From: an uncultured Lentisphaeria bacterium | Lineage (GTDB): Bacteria > Verrucomicrobiota > Lentisphaeria > Victivallales > Victivallaceae | Reading direction: 5' to 3' | Length of the DNA: 39,600 nucleotides | Assembly: GCA_903831825.1 (NCBI GenBank) | Contig: CAIKZE010000385.1 | Span: forward strand, 1 to 39,600 | In this document: one piece after another, positions 226 to 22,879 of the stretch | Layout: each line of letters opens with the position of its first letter | Numbering within the stretch: the stretch's first letter is position 1 | Program-made: the position numbers and the translations under genes | The notes under the pieces: generated by a model | Seen by the model: only the letters and a program-made list of their open reading frames with translations | Database searches by the model: none | Told to the model about the DNA's origin: nothing

Positions 226-1932
226 TCATTTTTGCGGCGGGATTTTCTCTTTTGCGGCATTCAGGCCATCCCATTCTTTGAACAATTCGCTAATTTGGGC
301 TGGATTTTTGGCGGATTTCAGCCGGGGCATGGCAAAACTGTCCATGGACAGACGGCTGAGCCCGCTGAGTATCTTGACATGCTGCGCATTCATATCGGCC
401 GGGCTGAGAATCAGGAAAACGAAGTATGGAGCAACCCCGCTTTCGAGGTCGGCGATGCCTTGCCGGGCGATACCCATTGCCACTACCGGATCCGTCAGGC
501 CGGGAACGCGGGTATGCGGAAATGCCACGCCTTCATTGAGAAAAGTCGATCCCTGTTCCTCGCGTTTAGCGACGGCGTCGCGAATAGTGTCCCGCTGTAA
601 GCCGGAAAGGGCGGGCATGACGAGATCAATCAGCGCATTGACGGCGTCCTTTTTATTCACCGGTGCATCCCAAAAACAAATTCTGGATTCCGGTATCAGT
701 TCGGCAAACTGCAAGCCTTGCCGGGGGAGAATTTTAGCAATGGAGATTTCATTTTCGGCTTTTTCAATAACTTCCTCTGTTTTCTGATGCGACTGCCTGG
801 TGTCCAGCACGGTCAGGGTAATGCCGCTGCTTTCACGGATCAGCCGCTCGACAACACTGGTTTGACCAATCAGCCTGCCCAGCATGGAAATTTTATGGCC
901 GGGAGTGCCGACGACAATGTGGCCGACCCGATATTCTTTCGCGAATTGTAAAATAGTTTTGACAACGTCCTCGCCTTTATAGGTAAAAACCATTGCGCCA
1001 AGCTGTTTGGCCAGAGTAAGCGTGGTTGAAAGAACGCGCTGGGTTCTGGCGTCAATCGCGGCGGGGCTTTCCGCCGGGGTCTGGACGTAAAACGCATACC
1101 AGGAGCGGTTGAGCCGCCCGGCCAGCCTGGACGCGTAGCGCAGCAACATGTCCCGGTTCGGGCCGTGCGAACTTAAACAGACCATAATCTGGTCCGGCGA
1201 TGACGGCGCTAAATTATCCGCCGCCAGATTATCCCGCCGTCTGGAATCTATTTGCGAGGCCAATTCGCGCAGGGTAAGTTCCCGGAGTTCTTCCAAATTG
1301 GACTGTTTAAAGAATTGTTCCATTGCCGCGTTGATGCGGTTTGGAGGATAGACTTTGCCTTCCCCGAGGCGTTTTCTGAGGTCTTCCGCCGTCAAGTCCA
1401 CGTTGATAAGCTGATCCGCCTCCAGCAGAACCTTGTCCGGAATGCGTTCCTTGACTTTGACGTTCAGGTCTCTTTCCACGGTATCGTACAGGCTTTCCAG
1501 ATGCTGAACGTTGAGCGTGGAGATGACGTGAATGCCGGCCTGCAGCAGATCTTCGACATCCTGGTAGCGCTTGGCGTTTTTGCTGCCCGGAATATTGGTA
1601 TGAGCCAGTTCGTCCACCAGCACGACGGCCGGTTTGCGGTTGAAAACCGCTTCGATATCCATTTCTTCGACTTCGATGCCGTGATAGAGAATTTTCGTCC
1701 GGGGAATTATTTCCAATCCCTCCAGCAAGGCGGCGGTATCCTGGCGCTGGTGGGTTTCCACCAGGCCGACCACGACGTCAACGCCTTCTTTTTTCAGGCG
1801 GTGCGCTTCCAGGAGCATCTGATAAGTTTTGCCCACCCCCGCGCAATAGCCGAGGTAAATTTTCAGTTTGCCGCGTTCCGACAACCGGATCATTCGCAGA
1901 AAACTGTCTGCCCGATTTTCGTTGATTGCCAT
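226..1932 (-). CDS. Truncated KdpD: KdpD N-domain + USP domain + PTS EIIA (PtsN-like) domain, no histidine kinase
   Basis: This is the last gene of the kdp operon, 8 nt after kdpC. Residues about 15-225 form the KdpD sensor N-domain, with Walker A GYCAGVGKT and the VVLVDELAHTN motif. Residues about 245-380 form a universal-stress-protein domain that resembles E. coli KdpD around WYAFYVQTP. From about 410 to the end the protein is a PTS EIIA type-2 domain, with the phosphorylatable His in GVAFPHTR (about residue 475). The membrane segments, HisKA and HATPase domains of full KdpD (about 890 residues) are absent. The open frame begins at a TTG at 1938; ATG 1932 behind AGAGGCGG is the likelier start. 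In E. coli, dephosphorylated EIIA-Ntr (PtsN) binds KdpD and modulates Kdp expression, so the fusion suggests that this input is built in. How it signals to a separate kinase is unknown. Confidence 0.88.
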   Translation of the reverse strand: MAINENRADSFLRMIRLSERGKLKIYLGYCAGVGKTYQMLLEAHRLKKEGVDVVVGLVETHQRQDTAALLEGLEIIPRTKILYHGIEVEEMDIEAVFNRKPAVVLVDELAHTNIPGSKNAKRYQDVEDLLQAGIHVISTLNVQHLESLYDTVERDLNVKVKERIPDKVLLEADQLINVDLTAEDLRKRLGEGKVYPPNRINAAMEQFFKQSNLEELRELTLRELASQIDSRRRDNLAADNLAPSSPDQIMVCLSSHGPNRDMLLRYASRLAGRLNRSWYAFYVQTPAESPAAIDARTQRVLSTTLTLAKQLGAMVFTYKGEDVVKTILQFAKEYRVGHIVVGTPGHKISMLGRLIGQTSVVERLIRESSGITLTVLDTRQSHQKTEEVIEKAENEISIAKILPRQGLQFAELIPESRICFWDAPVNKKDAVNALIDLVMPALSGLQRDTIRDAVAKREEQGSTFLNEGVAFPHTRVPGLTDPVVAMGIARQGIADLESGVAPYFVFLILSPADMNAQHVKILSGLSRLSMDSFAMPRLKSAKNPAQISELFKEWDGLNAAKEKIPPQK

Positions 1933-1946
1933 AGTCAAAGCCGCCT

Positions 1947-2516
1947 CTATCTAAAGTTAACTACAATATATGAATCAAGCTCACGATTGACCATCAGTAC
2001 ATTTATCAGCATCGTTTCGTCGCCAAGCGGATTGGCCCGGAAAGCATTTTTATTCAGGATTTCTTTAATTTTATCGATGGACATGTTTCTGGAGTCCGCG
2101 ACTCGTTTGGCCTGAAATAACGCCGCTTTCATGGTTATGTGCGGGTCGAGCCCGCTGCCGGAGGCGGTCGCCAGGTCGGCCGGAAGTTTATTTTTTCCAT
2201 CAGCGTTGAACTTGGCAATCAATGTTTTGGCCCGTTCCGCGATTGCCGGATTATTCGGCGACAGATTGCTGCCGCCGGCTGACGATGCATTATAATCCGC
2301 CGCGGAAGGCCGCGGCTGGAAGTATTTATCCTGCGCGAATGCCTGCGCGATGATCTCGCTGCCAGTGACCTTGCCGGTTTTATCGGTCAGCAGCCAGCCG
2401 TTGGCGGTATATGGCGTGCAGATTTGCGCCGCCGCATAGATGAGCGCGGGATAGGCGATACAGCATACGGCAATGGTCAGGACGATCAGTTTCAACGATA
2501 TTATCAAGTGTTTCAT
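1947..2516 (-). CDS. kdpC: Potassium-transporting ATPase subunit C
   Basis: KdpC is the single-span subunit that stabilises the KdpFABC high-affinity K+ uptake ATPase in the inner membrane. The 189-residue length is normal. A hydrophobic N-terminal span (about residues 7-28) is followed by the periplasmic domain with the family motifs ADYNASSAGGSNLSPNNP and GSGLDPHIT. The gene follows kdpB but is separated from it by about 320 bp holding a repeat insertion, which is unusual because kdpB and kdpC normally abut. Its ribosome-binding site AGGAGG lies 12 nt before the ATG, and that SD/start region is duplicated on the far side of the insertion. Confidence 0.97.
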   Translation of the reverse strand: MKHLIISLKLIVLTIAVCCIAYPALIYAAAQICTPYTANGWLLTDKTGKVTGSEIIAQAFAQDKYFQPRPSAADYNASSAGGSNLSPNNPAIAERAKTLIAKFNADGKNKLPADLATASGSGLDPHITMKAALFQAKRVADSRNMSIDKIKEILNKNAFRANPLGDETMLINVLMVNRELDSYIVVNFR

Positions 2517-2537
2517 TTTATTTATTTTCCTCCTGAA
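2513..2537. repeat. 25-bp direct repeat, copy 1 (covers kdpC SD and start codon)
   Basis: Identical to 2806-2830. On the minus strand it contains AGGAGG followed by AT-rich spacer and the kdpC ATG. The two copies flank the intervening insertion, so this looks like a long target duplication. Confidence 0.9.
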
Positions 2538-2805
2538 TTAGTCGGGCGTTTCCCGGATGAATAGCCGTATTCGTTTTTAACGACCAAATAATTTGAATAT
2601 CCAATATCCAACAAGGAATATCCAATATCCAAGTTTAAAAAAATCGCTGTCGCTCCTGCCTTTTTCCGGCAGTATCTATCATGAAACGATCTTGTAGTTA
2701 GAAATCTATATGATTGTCTTTTCTTTTTTGCCTTTCCTTCATCAGTTGGATATTCCTTGTTGGATATTGGATATTCGTTTTTACCCGCAAATTCTAGTGA
2801 AGTTC
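2538..2805. mobile_element. Small non-coding repeat element inserted between kdpB and kdpC
   Basis: The 268-bp segment is bounded by two identical 25-bp direct repeats. Inside, at 2590-2630, are tandem GAATATCC/AATATCCAA units, and at 2750-2776 is their reverse complement (TTGGATATTCC, TTGTTGGATATTGGATATTC). The element can therefore fold into a large hairpin. TATTCGTTTTTA occurs near both ends. Open frames crossing it translate to repetitive DIGYSLLDIGYSN-like text, which resembles the low-complexity repeat ORFs I recall as common between PVC genes. I see no transposase. It may be a non-autonomous element or a recombination-expanded repeat. Confidence 0.7.
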
Positions 2806-2830
2806 TCATTTTATTTATTTTCCTCCTGAA
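2806..2830. repeat. 25-bp direct repeat, copy 2 (decoy SD and ATG)
   Basis: Exact copy of 2513-2537, located just after the kdpB stop on the minus strand. It presents a second AGGAGG plus ATG that would start a short spurious reading frame (MRTSLEF...) running into the insertion. Confidence 0.9.
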
Positions 2831-2837
2831 AGTTTTA

Positions 2838-4913
2838 TCATGCCAGTTTGAGCAATTCCAGCAGCATGTCAATAAGTTTAATTCCGATAAACGGCAGAAC
2901 AACCCCGCCCAGCCCGTAGATCAGCAGATTGCGGCGGAGCAGCGAATCGGCCCCCGCCGGGCGGTATTTGACCCCTTTGATCGCGACCGGAATCAGCAGC
3001 GGAATGATTACGGCATTGAAAATCAATGCTGAAAGAATCGCGCTGTGCGGCGTCGCCAGGTTCATCACGTTCATTATGCCTAACTGCGGCATCGCCAGGA
3101 TAAACATGGCGGGGACTATCGCAAAATATTTGGCCATGTCATTGGCGATTGAAAAGGTGGTTAGCGCGCCGCGCGTTATGAGCAACTGCTTGCCGATTTC
3201 AATGACTTCTATCAGCTTGGTGGGATCGCTGTCCAGGTCAACCATGTTGCCGGCTTCTTTCGCCGCCTGCGTTCCCGAATTCATGGCGACGCCGATGTCG
3301 GCCTGCGCCAGCGCGGGAGCGTCATTGGTGCCGTCCCCCATCATGGCGACGAGCCGCCCCTGTTTCTGTTCGCGGCGAATATATTCCAGTTTGGCTTCCG
3401 GCCTGGCTTCGGCGATAAAGTCATCCACCCCGGCCTCGCGGGCAATGGTGGCGGCGGTCAATTTGTTGTCGCCGGTGACCATGACGATTCTCAAACCCAT
3501 GGCGCGGAGGCGGGCAAACCGCTCCTGGATGCCGACTTTCAGGATATCGGAAAGTTCCAACACTCCCAGTACCCGGTTGTTTTCGGTCACAACCAGCGGC
3601 GTGCTGCCTTTGACGGCGACCTTTTCAACCACTCCCTGAAGTTCTTCCGGAATGGTTCCGCCCTGTTGACGGATGTATTTGCAGATCGCGTCAAAAGAGC
3701 CTTTCCGGTAGTTGTCCGACCCGATATCCACGCCGCTCAGTCTGGTCTGCGCTGAAAACGGGATCAGTTTAGCGTTGGAATCTTCAGCAGGAAATTTATT
3801 GCCCAGCCGTTCTTCGCCGAGCGTCAGCACGGAGCGGCCTTCCGGGGTTTGATCGCCGAAGGAGGCGACAGTTACAGCCACGGCCAGCGTCTCCGTGTCC
3901 ACTCCGGTCAGCGGATAGTATTCAGTTGCCTGGCGGTTACCCACGGTAATGGTGCCGGTTTTGTCGATCAGCAGCGTGTCGATATCGCCGGCCAGTTCCA
4001 CGGCCTTGCCGCTTTTAGCCAGGATATTCGCCGACAGCGCCCGGTCCATCCCGGCGATCCCGATGGCGGACAGCAGCGCCCCGATTGTGGTCGGAATCAG
4101 ACAGACCAGCAACGCCACCAGCGTCGGCACCGGAATAACCGTGCCGAAAAATTTGCCGATCGGCAGGAGCGTGGCGGTGACCATCAGGAATGCCAGCGTC
4201 AGTCCGGCCAGCGTAACCGTCAACGCCAGTTCATTGGGCGTTTTCTGCCGGGAAGCACCTTCGACCAGCGCGATCATCCGGTCCAGGAAAGAATCTCCGG
4301 CCCCGCAGGTGATGCGCACGATCAACTGATCGGAAAGCAGCCGCGTGCCGCCGGTAACGCCGGAACAGTCGCCGCCGGCTTCGCGCAATACCGGAGCGGA
4401 TTCGCCGGTTACCGCCGATTCGTCCACGCTGGCGGCGCCTTCAAGGATTTCGCCGTCGCCGGGAATGATTTCACCGGCCTGAACTATTATGATGTCGCCC
4501 GCGTTAAGCGCGGTCGAGGGAACCTCCTCAGTTTGCTGATTGTGAAGGAGTTTCCTGGCCGGAGTGCTGCGCCGGGTCATTTTCAGCGATTCGGTCTGGG
4601 CTTTGCCGCGCGCTTCGGCCAGGGCTCCGGCAAAATTGCCGAACAGCACGGTAAGCCATAAGACAACGGCAACAATAAAAGTATATCCGGCGTCCGGAGA
4701 TTTGCTCCATAGATCGCTGATAATAATCATGGTGGTGAGGGCAGCGCCGATTTCCGTGACAAACATGACGGGATTGCCGACCATGATCCGCGGGTCGAGC
4801 ATGGTCAGCGACTGCCGCACGGCTTCCTTTACCAGTTTTTTCTCAAAAATCCCGGCTTTCCGGGAATGCCTGCGCTGCAGTTTGATCTGCTGGTTGATTT
4901 CAATATTATTCAT
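2838..4913 (-). CDS. kdpB: Potassium-transporting P-type ATPase subunit B
   Basis: KdpB is the catalytic P-type ATPase subunit that energises K+ import through KdpA. The 691 residues match the family. The phosphorylation motif DKTGTITVG is intact, as are TGES in the actuator domain ([10 protein letters not shown]), the nucleotide-domain KGS motif, and the hinge [19 protein letters not shown]. Multiple membrane spans lie at the N-terminal, middle and C-terminal positions. ATG 4913 follows AGGAC with a 9-nt spacer, 12 nt after kdpA. The reading frame has no defects. Confidence 0.98.
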
Positions 4914-4925
4914 TTTTAAAAGTCC

Positions 4926-6602
4926 TTATTTAGTTAATACGCTCAAGTGTTCAGCAATCGGGCCGAGCACCGCGACCGGCAGGAACAACAGCGCGCCGAT
5001 AAAGATTACGCTGCCCAGCAGCACAAACCCGAAAAGTGTCCGGTCAGTGTGCAGGGTCCCGCTGGTTTCCGGTACCGGTTTTTTCGCGGCAAGCATCCCG
5101 GCAATCGCCAGCGGCAGGATTATCGGGATAAAACGCGCCAGCAGCATTACGATTCCGGCAACCACATTCCACGGAACAGTGCTGTTTTTGAGCCCGCCCA
5201 TCCCGGAGCCGTTATTGGCGGCGGCGGAAGTGAACTCATACAATATTTCAGTAAATCCATGGCTGCCGGGATTACCGACCGTATCAATGCCCAACGGGGT
5301 CATGGCAAACCAGGCGGTACAACCCAGAATCAGCAGCGGATGCACCAGCAATGCCAGCAGCGCCACCTTCATTTCCGCGGTCTCCACCTTTCGCGCCAGA
5401 TATTCCGGCGACCGTCCGACCATCATGCCGCAGATGAACACCCCGATAATGACATACATGAACATATTGATAAAACCGACGCCGACGCCGCCAAACGCCA
5501 CGTTTGACCACATGCCGAACAGCGGCAGCAGCAGGGTCAGCGGATTCAGACTGTCGTACATGCAGTTCCCCGAACCGTTGCTGGTGGAGGTGGCGACGAC
5601 ACTCCACAACGCGCTTGCTTCAGTTCCAAACCTTAATTCTTTCCCTTCCTGATTGCCGACGTTCTGAGCAACCGCCAGTCCGGTCAAAGCCCTGGCCGGG
5701 GCATTTTCAAAATATTCCGCCAGCCCGGCGCAGGCAATCATCAGGCTGCCCATTACGATAAAAATCACCAGCGCGTGTTTCATTCTGCCGGTAATCCTTC
5801 CGAACATCCAGACACAAGCCATCGGAATGATGATGATGCATAAGCATTCAATCGCGTTCGTGAAAAAACTCGGATTTTCGAACGGGTGCGCCGAATTCGG
5901 GCCGAAAAAGCCGCCGCCGTTGGTGCCAAGCTGCTTGATCGCGACAAATGCCGCCGCCGGGCCGCGGGAGATCAGTTGTTCCGGGCCTTCCAGGGTTATC
6001 GCCTTGATGGTTCCGCCCAGGGTCATGGGAACTCCGGAAAATGCGAGTATCAGCCCGACAATGACAGCCATCGGCAGCAGAATGAAAAGCGTTGCCCGGA
6101 GCGTGTCCCGGTAGAAATTGCCGACATCAGTTGAGCCGCTCAATGCCCGGCAGATTGCCGCCAGCGCCGCGAGCCCAACCGCCGGAGTAACAAACTGCAG
6201 CCACATCAGGGCAAGCTGCGAGAAATAACTCAAGGAGACTTCGCCGGAATAGTGTTGTTGATTCGTGTTGGTTACAAACGAAGCAACCGTATGAAATATC
6301 ATGCTTAATTCCAGCGGACCCTTGCCGTCGGGATTAAGCGGCAGGACTGATTGTCCGAGCAAAACCAGGAATACCGCGGCAAATATCAGGGCATTGAAAA
6401 TCAGCATGGCAATACTGTATTCTTTCCAGTCTGAGCCTTGCGTAATGAATTTGCCGCCGATGCGGGTTATGAATCTTTCCAGCCCGGCATGCAGCGGCGA
6501 AAGCTTCGGCCCCGGTTCCATGACGCGAAACAGGAAATATCCCAGCGGCCAGGAAACCGCGATTGCGACAATAAAAAACAGTATTGTAAAAAGTATGGAC
6601 AT
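4926..6602 (-). CDS. kdpA: Potassium-transporting ATPase subunit A
   Basis: KdpA is the K+-selective channel-like subunit of KdpFABC, homologous to Trk/KtrB K+ transporters. It is 558 residues long, the usual size, with about ten membrane spans. Conserved selectivity-loop and family segments are visible, including TNTNQQHYSGE, GTNGGGFFGPNSAHPFENP and SAAANNGSGMGG. The start ATG 6602 follows AGGAGA at an 8-nt spacing. It sits between kdpF and kdpB with short gaps, consistent with one transcript. Confidence 0.98.
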   Translation of the reverse strand: MSILFTILFFIVAIAVSWPLGYFLFRVMEPGPKLSPLHAGLERFITRIGGKFITQGSDWKEYSIAMLIFNALIFAAVFLVLLGQSVLPLNPDGKGPLELSMIFHTVASFVTNTNQQHYSGEVSLSYFSQLALMWLQFVTPAVGLAALAAICRALSGSTDVGNFYRDTLRATLFILLPMAVIVGLILAFSGVPMTLGGTIKAITLEGPEQLISRGPAAAFVAIKQLGTNGGGFFGPNSAHPFENPSFFTNAIECLCIIIIPMACVWMFGRITGRMKHALVIFIVMGSLMIACAGLAEYFENAPARALTGLAVAQNVGNQEGKELRFGTEASALWSVVATSTSNGSGNCMYDSLNPLTLLLPLFGMWSNVAFGGVGVGFINMFMYVIIGVFICGMMVGRSPEYLARKVETAEMKVALLALLVHPLLILGCTAWFAMTPLGIDTVGNPGSHGFTEILYEFTSAAANNGSGMGGLKNSTVPWNVVAGIVMLLARFIPIILPLAIAGMLAAKKPVPETSGTLHTDRTLFGFVLLGSVIFIGALLFLPVAVLGPIAEHLSVLTK

Positions 6603-6617
6603 AACAGTTTCTCCTGT

Positions 6618-6698
6618 TTAAAATTTTTCCGGCCAAACCAGAGCGTATACCAGGTAGCCGAAGCAAAAAACGGTTGCGATTGTAACGATATAAATCAT
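6618..6698 (-). CDS. kdpF: Potassium-transporting ATPase subunit F (26 residues)
   Basis: This gene is too short for routine ORF calling. ATG 6698 follows AGGAG with a 7-nt spacer, and the frame ends at TAA 6618. The 26-residue product is one hydrophobic helix ending GYLVYALVWPEKF, which closely matches the KdpF consensus GYL.YAL. In known complexes KdpF is a lipid-like stabiliser of KdpA/B/C. Its position directly upstream of kdpA completes the kdpFABC order. Confidence 0.93.
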   Translation of the reverse strand: MIYIVTIATVFCFGYLVYALVWPEKF

Positions 6699-6731
6699 TT
6701 TTAAACTCCTTAATAAGAATGAATCTTTAAA

Positions 6732-8570
6732 TTATTTTTGAACCGGCCGGCCGTTTTCCGCCAGCGGCAGCGTAAACCAGAACGCCGCGCCCTGTCCGGC
6801 GTCGCTTTCCACGCCGACTTTTCCGTCATGCGCTTCAATAATCTCCTTGACGATTGCCAGTCCCAGTCCAGCGCCGGAACTTTTTTCCTGGCCGGGAATA
6901 CGGAAAAACTGCTCGAAAATTTGATCATGATACTGTTTGGGAATACCTTTGCCGGTATCTTTAATGGTAAACTTAACCGCGCCGGCAACCGGTTCCGCGG
7001 AAATCGCAATCAAGCCGCCGGGATTGGTAAAACGCAGCGAATTGGACAACAAATTGCTGAAAACATGATCTATTCTGGCAGGGTCGGCATTTACTTCCGG
7101 CAAGTCATCGGAAACGGCAAATTGAATGTGAATGCCTTTGTCTTTGGCCTCGACCAGAAACGGTTCGGCGCCGTCGCGGGCAAGCTCCGCCGGACGCATT
7201 TTCTGGAATTCCAGAAAATCTTTGCCGGATTCAATGCGGCTGATGTCCAGCAGGTTGTCGAGTATGTCCGCCAGCCTTTCGCTGTCATCCCTGGCCGCAA
7301 TCAGCAGTTCAGTCTGCTTCTCATTAATAATGCCGATTTTTTCATCCAGCAGCAGATGGATGGACATGCGCAGTGAAGTGAGCGGGGTTTTCAACTGGTG
7401 GGAAAGCGTGGCCACCACGCCTCTTTTCAGTTCATTCTGCTCATAATTACGGGTTACGTCTTTAATGACCAGAGAACATCCGGTAAGCTCCCCCTGGTCT
7501 CTGGTCGCCGGAATCGGAACCACCGACGGCTGGAAGAAGTGTTCCCGGTTTTCGATAAAATACTGAACAAATTTACCCTTGCCGGTATTTTCGGCCGGAC
7601 GCCACTCCAGCAAGGCGCGGTCGACCAGTTTTGACAGCCAGTCCAGTTTGACATCTTTGACCAAAACTCCGGGTTTCAGCCCGAAATAACGTTCCGCGGT
7701 TTCCGTGGCCACTTCCACTCTGCCGTCAAGGTCGAGCACCACCACCGCATCCGGCAGCGCTTTGAAAACTTCAATATTGGCCTGCCGGTTGCGCATTAAT
7801 TCGCGCCGGTCGTTGGCGCGCGCGCTCCGGAGACCTTCCGCCATGGCGTTAAACGCTTCGGACAACAGCCCGATTTCATCTTTGGATTTCACTTCCAGCA
7901 CGACATCAAGGTTGCCCTTGCGGATGTCATTGGCGGATTCAATCAAAGTATGAATCGGGGCCAAAATCCAATGGCGGACGAAAAAACTCAAGGCCAGGGC
8001 GGCGGCGGCGCACGCCAGAATCGCGGCCAGCATTTGATTAAAAGCGGCTTCCGCGCGATGCTTCGCCGCATGGTTTGCCTGCTGCATGTTATCCTGATTC
8101 AGTTGAATGATCTCCTGAAGCAGCCCGTTTATCTCGGTCAACTGAGTTTTAAAATATGCGTCCCGCCTGGATTCAAAAGATCGATTTTTATCGTTGAACA
8201 CCGGGATTTTCTTCTCATATTCTTCAAAAAGAGCTTTTAATTTTTCGGCCTTTTCCTTTTCTCCGGGAATGGTGATATTGCTCAGTTCTGTTGCTAAGGC
8301 ATCATGGAATTTTTTCAGGTTTGAATCGATTTGCTTTTGTCCTTCTTCCGGATTGCCAAGCAGGGAATATGCCGTTCCGCTATCAATTCCCTCAAGCGCC
8401 TGGCGCATATTCTGGCAGGCGATGACGCTGATATAATTTTCCCGGAGAATCACATTGATCGACTGGCCGAGATCAATGATATGACCGATCGTAAGCAAGC
8501 CGAGAATGGCAACGATTGCGAACAGGCCGCCAAATCCCAGTAAAAGTTTTGTCCGTATTCCCGAAATCAT
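6732..8570 (-). CDS. KinB-like membrane sensor histidine kinase (HAMP-PAS-HisKA-HATPase)
   Basis: The 612-residue kinase has a membrane span at about 7-27, a periplasmic four-helix-type sensor region (about 28-180) and a second span at about 183-200. HAMP (about 200-252), PAS (about 262-375), HisKA with the phospho-acceptor in LSHQLKTPLTSL (about residue 390) and a HATPase with the GTGKGI and GAGLGLAIVKEII boxes follow. The domain order matches KinB, the partner of AlgB, and the adjacent regulator is AlgB-like. Because the neighbouring KdpD has no kinase domain, this protein probably supplies the kinase for Kdp control (inference from context). ATG 8570 follows AGGGA. It lies 33 nt upstream of kdpF. 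Confidence 0.88.
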   Translation of the reverse strand: MISGIRTKLLLGFGGLFAIVAILGLLTIGHIIDLGQSINVILRENYISVIACQNMRQALEGIDSGTAYSLLGNPEEGQKQIDSNLKKFHDALATELSNITIPGEKEKAEKLKALFEEYEKKIPVFNDKNRSFESRRDAYFKTQLTEINGLLQEIIQLNQDNMQQANHAAKHRAEAAFNQMLAAILACAAAALALSFFVRHWILAPIHTLIESANDIRKGNLDVVLEVKSKDEIGLLSEAFNAMAEGLRSARANDRRELMRNRQANIEVFKALPDAVVVLDLDGRVEVATETAERYFGLKPGVLVKDVKLDWLSKLVDRALLEWRPAENTGKGKFVQYFIENREHFFQPSVVPIPATRDQGELTGCSLVIKDVTRNYEQNELKRGVVATLSHQLKTPLTSLRMSIHLLLDEKIGIINEKQTELLIAARDDSERLADILDNLLDISRIESGKDFLEFQKMRPAELARDGAEPFLVEAKDKGIHIQFAVSDDLPEVNADPARIDHVFSNLLSNSLRFTNPGGLIAISAEPVAGAVKFTIKDTGKGIPKQYHDQIFEQFFRIPGQEKSSGAGLGLAIVKEIIEAHDGKVGVESDAGQGAAFWFTLPLAENGRPVQK

Positions 8571-11276: not shown

Positions 11277-11837
11277 TCATGATAGTAACTGCCGTAGTCT
11301 CGAATTGAATTCTTTGCAGGCTTTTTTAAGAGAATCCGGCGGATTTTCCAATTCTTTGTTTTGTTTGCAATTATCCGCCAGTCTGTCAATAAACACATGA
11401 GTTTCAGATTCGCAGTTTTTGTATTCATATTTTGGCTTGTATGATGTATTTTCATCCATTTCCACACTATTAAGCCAGGCCAGCCAGGTTTCAATATGCC
11501 GTTTTGGAATAATATGAACTACCGGTTCCGTATCAGAACGCGGTTTAATATTATTTTTTATTGCCGCAGCGTTAAGTTCATTATTATGATCTTTAACAGA
11601 GCCTTTATCAGCATCAATAACTACTACAAGTGCTGTTTTCCCACTGCGGGCACGAAGCGCAATAAGTTCATTTGCATATTTATCTCTAACATGCTTTTCG
11701 CCGGAACCGGCAGTACAAATTTCAGTTCGTATCAAGCGCTGATTAATATTCCACCCCTTCTTCAAAAAACGACAAGCGACTACTTCCTGTAATTTATCTT
11801 CACAAATTATAATAAATTGTGAGACTCTATTGCTCAT
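11277..11837 (-). CDS. Small TOPRIM-like protein (RloB/DUF4276-type), partner of adjacent ATPase
   Basis: The 186-residue protein has no membrane segment. The N-terminal strand FIIICEDKLQE (acidic residue at position 13) and VVVIDADKG (Asp75-x-Asp77) are arranged like the Glu and DxD metal ligands of TOPRIM nucleases. A later IPKRHIETWLAWL segment resembles RloB/DUF4276-type proteins. Its ATG lies 11 nt inside the end of the ATPase gene, so translation is probably coupled. Small TOPRIM proteins paired with an ABC ATPase occur in nuclease defence pairs such as PARIS (AriA/AriB), split OLD-type systems and RloA/RloB. The metal-ligand assignment is by eye. The base composition is more AT-rich than in flanking recF. 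Confidence 0.6.
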   Translation of the reverse strand: MSNRVSQFIIICEDKLQEVVACRFLKKGWNINQRLIRTEICTAGSGEKHVRDKYANELIALRARSGKTALVVVIDADKGSVKDHNNELNAAAIKNNIKPRSDTEPVVHIIPKRHIETWLAWLNSVEMDENTSYKPKYEYKNCESETHVFIDRLADNCKQNKELENPPDSLKKACKEFNSRLRQLLS

Positions 11838-12957
11838 TCTCTTCCCAGCCTCTTGCCATCGTTTCAGCGGGAGTCAATCCTGGTATTTCTGGAAACGGTT
11901 TGGTTATAACCTGCGCGCCATTTTGTCTTGAAAACCATAATTCCGAACCGTGCGCCATATTATTAATTATTTCCGGATGATGAGATATGATTATAGACTG
12001 AACGGATTTTTCTCCACAAACTTCTTCCAACAATTTCAGCCACGGCTGAATTTCACGCAGGGAAACAAAGTTCTCCGGTTCATCAATAAAAAGAACCGAG
12101 AAAACTTTATGTTTTAAAGATTCAAGTATCATATATAAGACTATTAATTGCCGCTGTCCATCAGATAAATTCTTAAACTTAAAAGCATAATTGCTATTTT
12201 CAATTTTAAATTCCGCCTCAAGTCTGCGCATATCGCCGCTTTCGACTAAATTTAGAATCTCAAATCCCGGAAGAACATCTTTTAAATATTCTTGCGCTTT
12301 ATATGCTATTCCGGAATTTTCCTGAATAAGATGCCTATACCATGACGAAAAATTTTCTGCGTGATTTGAAAGCCATTTATCTTCAGATTTTGCAATTTGT
12401 TCTATTAAAGCAGGATTAGGCCGAATAATCAGTAATTTTTTTATTTCTTCTCGAAACTTGATCAACGGCAAATTATCTTCGCGTTTGCCAATGCTGGGAA
12501 TTACTGAACGCCTCCAGTCGGCAGAAAAATGAGTCCCTTCTTTTACTTCTTCTTCTTTTTTTCTCTCTATTCGATAAAGATGAGCCTCATTACCGTCAAA
12601 ATTAAAGAAAACCTGGTTTTTCCATTTAAGGATTTCTTTTTTAATGCGGCATTCATCACTATTTTTTGCATATTCTAAAACAATCTCATAATCATAAGAT
12701 TCTTTATCTATTTCCAATATAAGACCAAATGTCTGTTCATTACGTTTTCCCCATTTTGTCAGAGAATCTTTATTTACAGTATCATCATCACCGGATAATA
12801 TATCTTGCCCTGACAATATCTTTTGAATAATTTTCAAAGCTTCCAGAACAGAGGTTTTTCCAGAACCATTCTTTCCAAGCCATAATTGAAATTTACCCGG
12901 ATTAATCCTGAAATTACTGAAACATCGAAAGTTGTCAATGTAAATTTCTTTTATCAT
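11827..12957 (-). CDS. RecF/OLD-like ABC ATPase (AAA_21/AAA_15 type), putative defence ATPase
   Basis: The 376-residue ATPase has Walker A GKNGSGKT at 28-35, the ABC signature LSDGQ at 264-268, Walker B VLFIDEPE at 288-295 and an H-loop IISHHPE near 326. The middle (about 60-250) is charged and probably helical, without the long coiled coil of SMC/RecN. Its N-terminus MIKEIYIDNFRCFSNF parallels RecF, but the middle and end are unlike RecF. It starts 10 nt after dnaN and overlaps the TOPRIM gene by 11 nt, so all should be co-transcribed. Codon use is A/T-rich, which suggests acquisition. The best guess is the sensor/motor half of a two-gene nuclease defence module; a clamp-linked repair role is the alternative. 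Confidence 0.75.
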   Translation of the reverse strand: MIKEIYIDNFRCFSNFRINPGKFQLWLGKNGSGKTSVLEALKIIQKILSGQDILSGDDDTVNKDSLTKWGKRNEQTFGLILEIDKESYDYEIVLEYAKNSDECRIKKEILKWKNQVFFNFDGNEAHLYRIERKKEEEVKEGTHFSADWRRSVIPSIGKREDNLPLIKFREEIKKLLIIRPNPALIEQIAKSEDKWLSNHAENFSSWYRHLIQENSGIAYKAQEYLKDVLPGFEILNLVESGDMRRLEAEFKIENSNYAFKFKNLSDGQRQLIVLYMILESLKHKVFSVLFIDEPENFVSLREIQPWLKLLEEVCGEKSVQSIIISHHPEIINNMAHGSELWFSRQNGAQVITKPFPEIPGLTPAETMARGWEENEQ

Positions 12958-14062: not shown

Positions 14063-14424
14063 ATCCTATCCTGCCTTTCTTAAGCTGGTTTATTCACAGG
14101 CTATATATTTATATTACTTATTACCTATACTCTATATCTATTTATTTTTATTATTATACCCTGTTAATTCTGTTAATAAAGCTAAATTTGAGCGAAAAAT
14201 CAAAAAAAATCATATTAATAAGATTGTTCGAAAAACTTTACTAAACTAAACCTTATCATCATTTATCAATTATTAACATTAATAATATGTTTTTATTAAC
14301 ACAGTTGTCAATAGATAAGATAAAAAATAGCTTAAAAGAGATTTTTAAATTTCTGAAAAGTAAGCTATATTTAAAAAATACAATATCCTGATAAAGGATT
14401 GAATCAATAAAATTATGGGGAAAA
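14063..14424. other. AT-rich divergent intergenic region; candidate origin of replication (oriC)
   Basis: This 362-bp gap between divergent dnaN and gmhA is overwhelmingly A/T. It contains one exact match to the DnaA-box pattern TTWTNCACA (TTATTCACA at 14090-14098). The 9-mer TTATTAACA, one base off the pattern, occurs three times (14171-14179 on minus, 14270-14278 and 14293-14301 on plus). Genes diverge from this point for 14 kb leftward and 6 kb rightward, and dnaN-recF are next to it, both usual near oriC. Against this, dnaA is absent and exact boxes are few. It must at least hold the divergent promoters for dnaN and gmhA. Confidence 0.4.
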
Positions 14425-20909: not shown

Positions 20910-21710
20910 TTATTTGAAGCGTTTCTTGGGTTGCTGAATAAAAGTTTTTTCCAGATGTACTTTAATTTCGGCAATAATTTTGACTGCCGACTTGGGATTG
21001 GCAACGTTGTTTTCACTCTTTGCCCAAGGCCTGCCCATGTGGACGGTATCCCAAGGGGAGCGGGTATTGCGCCTGGTGCTGGAACTGTCTCCATGTTTAC
21101 CGAAACCAAAACAGACGTTCATTTCATTATTCCAGACCGGTTGAAATCGTCCAATCAGATAATCTTCGGCGGTCTTTTGCCAAGCGCTTTTCACCACAAG
21201 AAACCGGCAATCAAAATCATCGGCATTGAGATTCCCGGCATACTTAATACTGCGTAAGTGATCTTTCAGCCGTCCAGCCAGTTTTTCGCCTTGTTCCTGG
21301 ACAGATACGGCGTCAAGGTCGGCGGGGTCGGCTTTCCCGACATATAGCGGATGGTCTGTTTTGGAGATAAGCCGATATGCTTCAAAATCGCCTTTGTAGT
21401 ATATGGCATAAACTCCGGAACCATAAAATCGACCAACCGTTTTCAATGGATGTCGAGGCTGTTCCAATAACGTATTGGCAATGATTTTACCAATAACTTT
21501 GGGGTCGGACGGGTCCAAAATCAACTCTGGTTCCCGTACTGGATCAAGCATTTTTGCCAACGTGAGCAACGATTCTCCAGTTTGGGCCAGATGGCGACGG
21601 AATTTTGCCGATTTATAAATATCCTCATCCGTTATCGTCTGGAAATTAGCTTTGATAAACTCGTCCAAATTTTGGACGAGTTCTTTCAGTGTTTCAATAT
21701 TGTCTGGCAT
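20910..21710 (-). CDS. Eco29kI-type GIY-YIG restriction endonuclease
   Basis: This is the restriction half of the R-M operon. The GIY-YIG nuclease core is visible: GVYAIYYKG (GIY), HPLYVGKAD (YIG), the downstream GRLKDHL Arg/His segment, the Glu in TAEDYLIGRF and Asn in PVWN. The fold order and length match Eco29kI, which cuts CCGCGG; the same specificity here is inferred, not shown. The open frame extends to 21740 inside the methylase gene, but ATG 21710 has a strong AGGGGG-CGGA ribosome-binding site and lies 11 nt after the methylase stop. The product is then 266 residues. Confidence 0.85.
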   Translation of the reverse strand: MPDNIETLKELVQNLDEFIKANFQTITDEDIYKSAKFRRHLAQTGESLLTLAKMLDPVREPELILDPSDPKVIGKIIANTLLEQPRHPLKTVGRFYGSGVYAIYYKGDFEAYRLISKTDHPLYVGKADPADLDAVSVQEQGEKLAGRLKDHLRSIKYAGNLNADDFDCRFLVVKSAWQKTAEDYLIGRFQPVWNNEMNVCFGFGKHGDSSSTRRNTRSPWDTVHMGRPWAKSENNVANPKSAVKIIAEIKVHLEKTFIQQPKKRFK

Positions 21711-21721
21711 TCCGCCCCCTG

Positions 21722-22879
21722 TTAACAATTTTCGATACAATGATACAAATGACTTCCCAGTGTTCTCGCCAGTTCCGCGGGAACGGCATTGCCCAATTGA
21801 CGCATAGCCTCAGTCCAGCATCCGTTCAAAACATAATTGTCAGGGAAAGTTTGAATTCTCGCCGCTTCTCGAACCGTGAAATAACGAACGTCGCCATTTG
21901 GCAACACCACCGTGTTTTCTCCGCCAGGCACTCCGTGGTCTCCAGCCTTCAATGTCTTGGCTGGATAATCATAAGGGCTGCCGGTATGTCCGGGATATAT
22001 CCTGGCTCCTCCGCGAAATTCATGATTGTATATTTTTTTTGATAGCGCCGATTGAGTGTCCGGCAAATCGGAAATGGCTTCTCTGACCGTTCGCCACGGT
22101 TTGGTCATTGCCGCCGCTTCCAGCCACTTTTCTTTATTACGGTTTACATTATCAGGTTTGCGGGGACGCTCACGAATTGGAACCTTGTTTCGCTCCCAAT
22201 ACTCGCCGGTTATCCATTGGTCATGAAGCAGGGCTTCTTCTGAATGTGTTGCGACGGGATATGACCATTCACGTTTTAAATCGGCTCTGACGCCAACAAT
22301 GATAACCCGCTCACGTTTCTGCGGGATACCATAGTCGGCGGCAGTCAAAACTCTGGACACTACATTGTAACGCAGTCCGTTGTATGTGCCTTTTGTGTGA
22401 TGCCGCTCAAGAACGGATAAGTGCTCCGTCCAGTCCTGATCGTCTTTTTTGACGACTTCCGGGTAATTCAGTTGAAGCAGGATGTACTGAAAATAAGTGG
22501 CAAATGACTTTCTGGTCAAACCCTTGACGTTCTCAAACAAGAATGCTTTCGGCATCAGTTCTCGAACGGCGCGTATTGCCTGGGGAAACATATTTCGTTG
22601 GTCTTCATTGCCAAGATGCTTGCCTCCCAGGGAAAAAGGCTGACAAGGCGGTCCGCCGGCAAGCAATTCGACGGGCTGATTAAATTTGAACTCGAAGTCT
22701 CTGACATCTTGTTCAAATACAGGCCAATCCGACACCATCTGATTTTTCAACATCTGATTCAGGCGAATGGTATCACAGGAATGTTTGTCCCATTCCACCA
22801 AGGCAAGATGCTTAAACCCGGCAAGCCCCATGCCCAAGGCCAATCCGCCGGCGCCAGTAAAAATTTCCACTGAATTCAT
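21722..22879 (-). CDS. C5-cytosine DNA methyltransferase of the R-M operon
   Basis: The 385-residue enzyme carries the ordered m5C motifs: motif I FTGAGGLALGMG, motif IV with the catalytic Cys in GGPPCQPFS, motif VI FLFENVKGL, motif VIII QKRERVIIVG, and C-terminal motifs IX/X with RQLGNAVPAELA. It should methylate cytosine in the site cut by the adjacent endonuclease. It overlaps vsr by 4 nt (ATGA) and ends just before the endonuclease gene, so the operon order is vsr-methylase-endonuclease. Making the methylase before the nuclease is a common safety arrangement. Confidence 0.95.
   Translation of the reverse strand: MNSVEIFTGAGGLALGMGLAGFKHLALVEWDKHSCDTIRLNQMLKNQMVSDWPVFEQDVRDFEFKFNQPVELLAGGPPCQPFSLGGKHLGNEDQRNMFPQAIRAVRELMPKAFLFENVKGLTRKSFATYFQYILLQLNYPEVVKKDDQDWTEHLSVLERHHTKGTYNGLRYNVVSRVLTAADYGIPQKRERVIIVGVRADLKREWSYPVATHSEEALLHDQWITGEYWERNKVPIRERPRKPDNVNRNKEKWLEAAAMTKPWRTVREAISDLPDTQSALSKKIYNHEFRGGARIYPGHTGSPYDYPAKTLKAGDHGVPGGENTVVLPNGDVRYFTVREAARIQTFPDNYVLNGCWTEAMRQLGNAVPAELARTLGSHLYHCIENC

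Follow-up and report, generated by a model that had tools for sequence, protein, structure and literature searches.

The genes dnaN (sliding clamp) and recF are universal DNA-replication and repair genes, and the presence of two further genes between them raises the question of what this pair is and how it came to lie there. We examined it in the window, a stretch of 39,600 nucleotides from an uncultured Lentisphaeria bacterium. All four genes lie on the minus strand, a point absent from the initial annotation, and are transcribed in the order dnaN, 10 nt, a gene for an ATPase, an 11-nt overlap, a gene for a small protein, 49 nt and recF (Table 1). The coordinates, the spacing after dnaN and the overlap given in the initial annotation were exact.

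Table 1. Features of the dnaN–recF region in the window, and the related locus in genome G238
Feature	Position	Strand	Basis
Best promoter-like site upstream of dnaN, TTGACA-18-TATTAT, 11/12	14282-14311	minus	Consensus match only
dnaN (sliding clamp), upstream neighbour	14062-12968	minus	TIGR00663, 5.8e-87
ATPase of the pair, 376 aa, RecF/Rad50/OLD-type ABC ATPase, HEC-01A-like	12957-11827	minus	ORF, Pfam, PADLOC
Overlap of the ATPase and small-protein frames, 11 nt	11827-11837	minus	ORF coordinates
Small TOPRIM-type putative nuclease, 186 aa, HEC-01B-like; predicted catalytic motifs E13, D75-x-D77	11837-11277	minus	
recF, downstream neighbour	11227-10136	minus	TIGR00611, 4.8e-93
Pair and AddB-AddA-like genes in G238	L051:3071-9770	minus	

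Comparison with the copy in a congener gave dN/dS values of 0.13 for the ATPase and 0.20 for the small protein, with zero stops, and we therefore regard both frames as real genes. In the homologous pairs, too, the two frames overlap or lie almost end to end, and every small-protein relative examined lay directly 3' of such an ATPase gene. The GC3 values of the ATPase (0.286) and small-protein (0.294) genes are the two lowest among the 28 long ORFs of the window; dnaN is next (0.408), and recF stands at 0.558, which bears out the earlier remark that both genes are more AT-rich than recF. The scan that yielded the promoter-like site upstream of dnaN detected no minus-strand terminator-like site between dnaN and recF. 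Since a strong promoter-like site precedes dnaN and no terminator-like site follows within the cluster, it is plausible that the pair is expressed from the dnaN promoter and co-transcribed with dnaN and recF. The location in this cluster, the common strand and the lack of a terminator-like site would also suit a role in repair or replication, in which the ATPase would be a RecF paralogue working with DnaN and RecF, and the TOPRIM-type protein would act like RecR or as a repair nuclease.

The ATPase contains a complete set of ABC-type motifs, as had been read from the sequence at the outset: Walker A GKNGSGKTS, signature LSDGQRQ, Walker B VLFIDEPE and H-loop ISHH, with residues G28/N30/G31/G33/K34, S265/G267, D292/E293 and S325/H326 invariant across 11 homologues. 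In Pfam it matched AAA_21 (1.8e-15), AAA_15 (3e-15) and also SMC_N. The PADLOC search proposed with the initial annotation returned HEC-01A as its best family (2e-25, residues 2-334 of 376), and HEC-01A models matched all 11 ATPases of the family. Profile-profile alignment with true HEC-01A ATPases, taken from HEC-01 pairs of the same phylum, gave a probability of 99.4 and an E of 5e-22 over 339 columns. Among relatives of known structure, the ATPase has TsOLD, PtuA and AriA, with TsOLD the best for the ATPase profile. With RecF, the product of the adjoining gene, the ATPase shares the ABC ATPase head and a similar N-terminus, a resemblance that would fit a RecF paralogue; however, the alignment covers no more than the first ~85 residues (31% identity over 85 aa). 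Its RecF score of 46 bits, against a cut-off of 172, with the best stretch in the first 49 residues, led us to reject it as a RecF ortholog, and places it far closer to HEC-01A and OLD-type ATPases than to RecF.

The initial annotation had pointed to TOPRIM-like acidic motifs at position 13 and at Asp75-x-Asp77 of the small protein. This was upheld: C12-E13-D14, D75 and D77 do not vary among 10 proteins from different genomes, namely that of the window and nine others that are 31-72% identical to it. Because E13, D75 and D77 persist down to 31% identity, the motifs are conserved and do not arise by chance. The motif test of the TOPRIM superfamily, a Glu after β-1 and a DxD after β-3, finds E13, D75 and D77 in these places, and the invariant residues form the pattern expected of a TOPRIM nuclease. 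Among Pfam families, only below-threshold matches to DUF3226 and DUF4276 were found, and alignment of the small-protein profile with DUF4276 proteins of family-mates was not significant. The best PADLOC match was HEC-01B, a weak one (8e-4 over 62 residues), and the HEC-01B model PDLC04202 matched 8 of the 10 family members with low scores. In hhalign, the small protein aligned with true HEC-01B proteins from pairs of the same phylum with a probability of 74 and an E of 2.7e-5 over 143 columns, with the acidic motifs in register.

AlphaFold models of both proteins were poor. That of the small protein, from a four-row alignment, reached a pLDDT of 46, with an order of strands and helices that fits TOPRIM, and returned no Foldseek match below an E of 0.7; that of the ATPase, from a similarly shallow four-row alignment, reached a pLDDT of 58, and in Foldseek this weak model matched Rad50/SMC heads with low TM-scores. 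With values this low the models do not establish the TOPRIM fold; the assignment is based on the motifs and the profile alignment, from which we describe the small protein as a TOPRIM-type putative nuclease.

The combination of an ABC ATPase with a TOPRIM protein recurs in several defence systems. HEC denotes an Hma-embedded candidate, found by guilt-by-embedding (PMC12111858; PMC12988326). HEC-01 resembles the window pair in having two genes, an ATPase followed by a small TOPRIM protein, with homology detected by profile alignment, and close relatives of the window pair (G126, G223) are themselves embedded in Hma. Unlike true HEC-01 members, however, the window ATPase scored 88 bits (true members 460-525) and its TOPRIM-type protein 17 bits (237-283), and the window copy stands alone in the dnaN–recF cluster of a genome without detectable HmaC. 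Judged by sequence, the window pair and its nine relatives are a divergent HEC-01-like subfamily, with an unusual location in the window. The earlier proposal of an undescribed defence type is not supported, because the family is close to HEC-01. Our literature search found no functional report on HEC-01 or on the window-type subfamily; protection against T4 and T5 has been reported for HEC-04, in which ATPase and TOPRIM are fused (PMC12111858).

PARIS (AriA/AriB) likewise has separate genes for an ABC ATPase and a TOPRIM protein, and the sensor-effector logic is likely similar. AriA is only a distant match to the window ATPase: the PADLOC AriA models, which match it at 1e-17, are as long as the general Pfam models AAA_21 and AAA_15 and score nearly the same. 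The window TOPRIM-type protein had no AriB match, and only one of the 10 family members reached an E of ~0.04 (0.039), so membership in PARIS was rejected. OLD, Gabija GajA and HEC-04 (IbfA) also combine an OLD-type ABC ATPase with TOPRIM, but these are single-chain fusions, whereas the window TOPRIM-type protein is small, with weak similarity to DUF3226/DUF4276; we rejected membership in OLD or Gabija because the window and each of the nine family members examined have two separate ORFs. AbiL (AbiLi/AbiLii) and RloA/RloB are two-gene systems of an ATPase and a small partner, and the AbiLi PADLOC model matches the window ATPase (3e-21); these were rejected because searches of Pfam, NCBIfam and PADLOC matched the small protein to neither AbiLii nor RloB.

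The distribution of the pair bears directly on how it reached this site. The pair occupies the same dnaN–recF site in two of the three genomes of the genus, that of the window and G001. The third, G002, has an AT-rich dnaN–recF gap of ~120 bp and no copy of the pair anywhere in the genome. As had been suggested as a check, we looked for dnaN and recF adjacent without the pair in relatives and found this in 20 genomes, G002 and 19 others, with gaps of 9-131 bp (21 loci in genomes of the genus, family and order, one genome having two loci); seven further dnaN loci without the pair, where recF was not detected next to dnaN, lie outside this count. A search of the class (198 genomes) found small-protein relatives in 6, and a sample of the phylum (388 genomes) in 8. 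These genomes are MAGs, so absence of the pair carries some uncertainty. The pair is rare, and its carriers at dnaN–recF are some freshwater Lentisphaeria of one genus. Another relative was found in a MAG of a different phylum, Hydrogenedentota, whose ATPase is 59% identical to that of the window as against 54% for the same-order copy in G344; the tree leaves this fork open. The pair is an accessory element that is not vertically inherited in the clade. Its gain in the genus is the simplest reading, and its loss in G002 is possible. A literature search on insertions between dnaN and recF found no papers.

The divergence between the window and G001 differs along the region. Synonymous divergence (pS) was 0.47 for dnaN, 0.45 for recF, 0.25 for the ATPase gene and 0.55 for the small-protein gene. 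Nucleotide identity was ~0.94 in the ATPase gene; in the small gene it was ~0.6 over the first two thirds and ~0.9 over the remaining third. The proteins are 92% (ATPase) and 72% (TOPRIM-type) identical. The pair is therefore a mosaic with a history unlike that of its flanks, a pattern that fits recombination; the low synonymous divergence of the ATPase gene would not follow from diversifying selection alone. Comparison of 11500-11840 of the window with L036 shows a mosaic boundary inside the TOPRIM-type gene.

Relatives of the pair sit at several unrelated sites, among them dnaN–recF, Hma, AddB-AddA-like genes and prfB. In G126 and G223 the pair, whose ATPase and TOPRIM-type proteins are 52% and 45% identical to those of the window, lies inside an anti-phage Hma operon in the order HmaA, one extra gene, HmaB, ATPase, TOPRIM and HmaC; the operon is complete in G223 (HmaA 4.8e-188, HmaB 2.1e-129, HmaC 4.5e-122) and likewise in G126. 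In G180 the pair is near prfB, and at L034, L035 and G344 its neighbours have no clear theme. Most relatives outside Hma are also outside recognisable defence islands. In G238 the pair lies 20 bp upstream of a gene for a PD-(D/E)XK protein, which is followed by a gene for a protein with both UvrD and PD-(D/E)XK, an AddB-AddA-like arrangement that favours an accessory function in repair; it is the second place where the pair immediately precedes genes for recombination, although the pattern of AddAB-like and recF neighbourhoods was noted post hoc, from very few sites. A further precedent for such a function is the archaeal OLD-family ATPase Cran1, which is described as acting in the cell cycle and not in defence (PMC12796447). 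However, the absence of the pair from G002 and 19 other genomes with adjacent dnaN and recF, its rarity in the class and the scatter of other copies over unrelated sites, with two in Hma, make us regard a repair or replication accessory as unlikely. The suggestion of a lineage-specific RecF accessory is not supported, because relatives occupy other loci in other lineages.

Separately, loci L055 (G126:C1:2281652-2285248) and L048 show a true HEC-01 pair several kb past the HmaA end of an Hma operon in which a window-type pair is already present, so that two ATPase-TOPRIM cassettes lie close together in one region of the genome. Scans of viral contigs with both proteins and with a wider ATPase alignment found no relatives, nor did tblastn of phages and plasmids with the TOPRIM-type protein. 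The corresponding plasmid search with the ATPase returned only two, 24-25% identical, on cyanobacterial plasmids. The one at L046 (CP070234.1 76681-79746), 25% identical, is on a conjugative Dolichospermum plasmid, with an annotated dnaN ~400 bp away in convergent orientation, which is probably a coincidence.

We consider it probable that the pair was acquired horizontally and inserted between dnaN and recF in this one genus, and that it forms an autonomous anti-phage module of two genes, of the HEC-01-like ATPase-TOPRIM type. Its defence association is supported by the Hma-embedded relatives and by homology to HEC-01A and HEC-01B, in line with the defence module first proposed for this locus; its acquisition is supported by the empty junctions, sparse distribution, differing sites, base composition and exchange history. 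Counting against this reading are the lack of close relatives in phages, plasmids and viral contigs, the location of most relatives outside Hma away from recognisable defence islands, the poor structure models and the lack of detectable HmaC in the genome of the window. In PARIS, AriA senses and sequesters, and released AriB cleaves tRNA (PMC12409363). By analogy, the RecF/Rad50-like ABC ATPase of the window would assemble as a sensor and regulator that holds and licenses the TOPRIM-type nuclease. A phage component or phage-altered DNA would trigger release or activation of the nuclease, which may then cut nucleic acid, either tRNA or DNA, by means of metal ions at E13, D75 and D77, and the cleavage would stop phage growth or the cell.

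A toxin-antitoxin-like or plasmid/mobile-element exclusion system, in which the ATPase would restrain a TOPRIM toxin for the sake of stability or in an anti-plasmid role, would share much of this mechanism. The overlapping two-gene layout and the faster evolution of the TOPRIM-type protein between the congeners would agree with it, and PARIS itself has been described as a sensor with a released toxic nuclease (PMC12409363). Its mechanism overlaps that of an anti-phage module, however, and since the embedding in Hma points to defence, we find this alternative improbable. Very unlikely in our estimate is that the co-expressed, RecF-like ATPase guards the replication and recombination apparatus of the host, sensing when a phage interferes with the clamp, RecF or DNA ends, and unleashing the TOPRIM-type nuclease; the G238 pair, with AddB-AddA-like genes just after it, would offer a parallel, and gives a weak hint of clamp or RecF monitoring.

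The pair exemplifies a defence-type cassette inside a core dnaN–recF cluster, at a site that is empty in a congener, and it belongs, with its nine relatives, to a divergent HEC-01-like subfamily that is caught only weakly by existing models. If the pair is active, co-transcription with dnaN and recF would link replication and repair status to a TOPRIM defence nuclease. Elsewhere in the window, ~7 kb from the dnaN cluster, a type II restriction-modification system was found at 20910-22879 (minus strand), where a gene for an Eco29kI-type restriction endonuclease (PF09517, 4e-39) overlaps one for a C-5 cytosine methylase (PF00145, 2e-56). Just beyond recF, the region 226-8570 (minus strand) holds Kdp transporter genes, KdpA among them, and also encodes a KdpD sensor domain, a sensor histidine kinase and a response regulator of the sigma-54 type.
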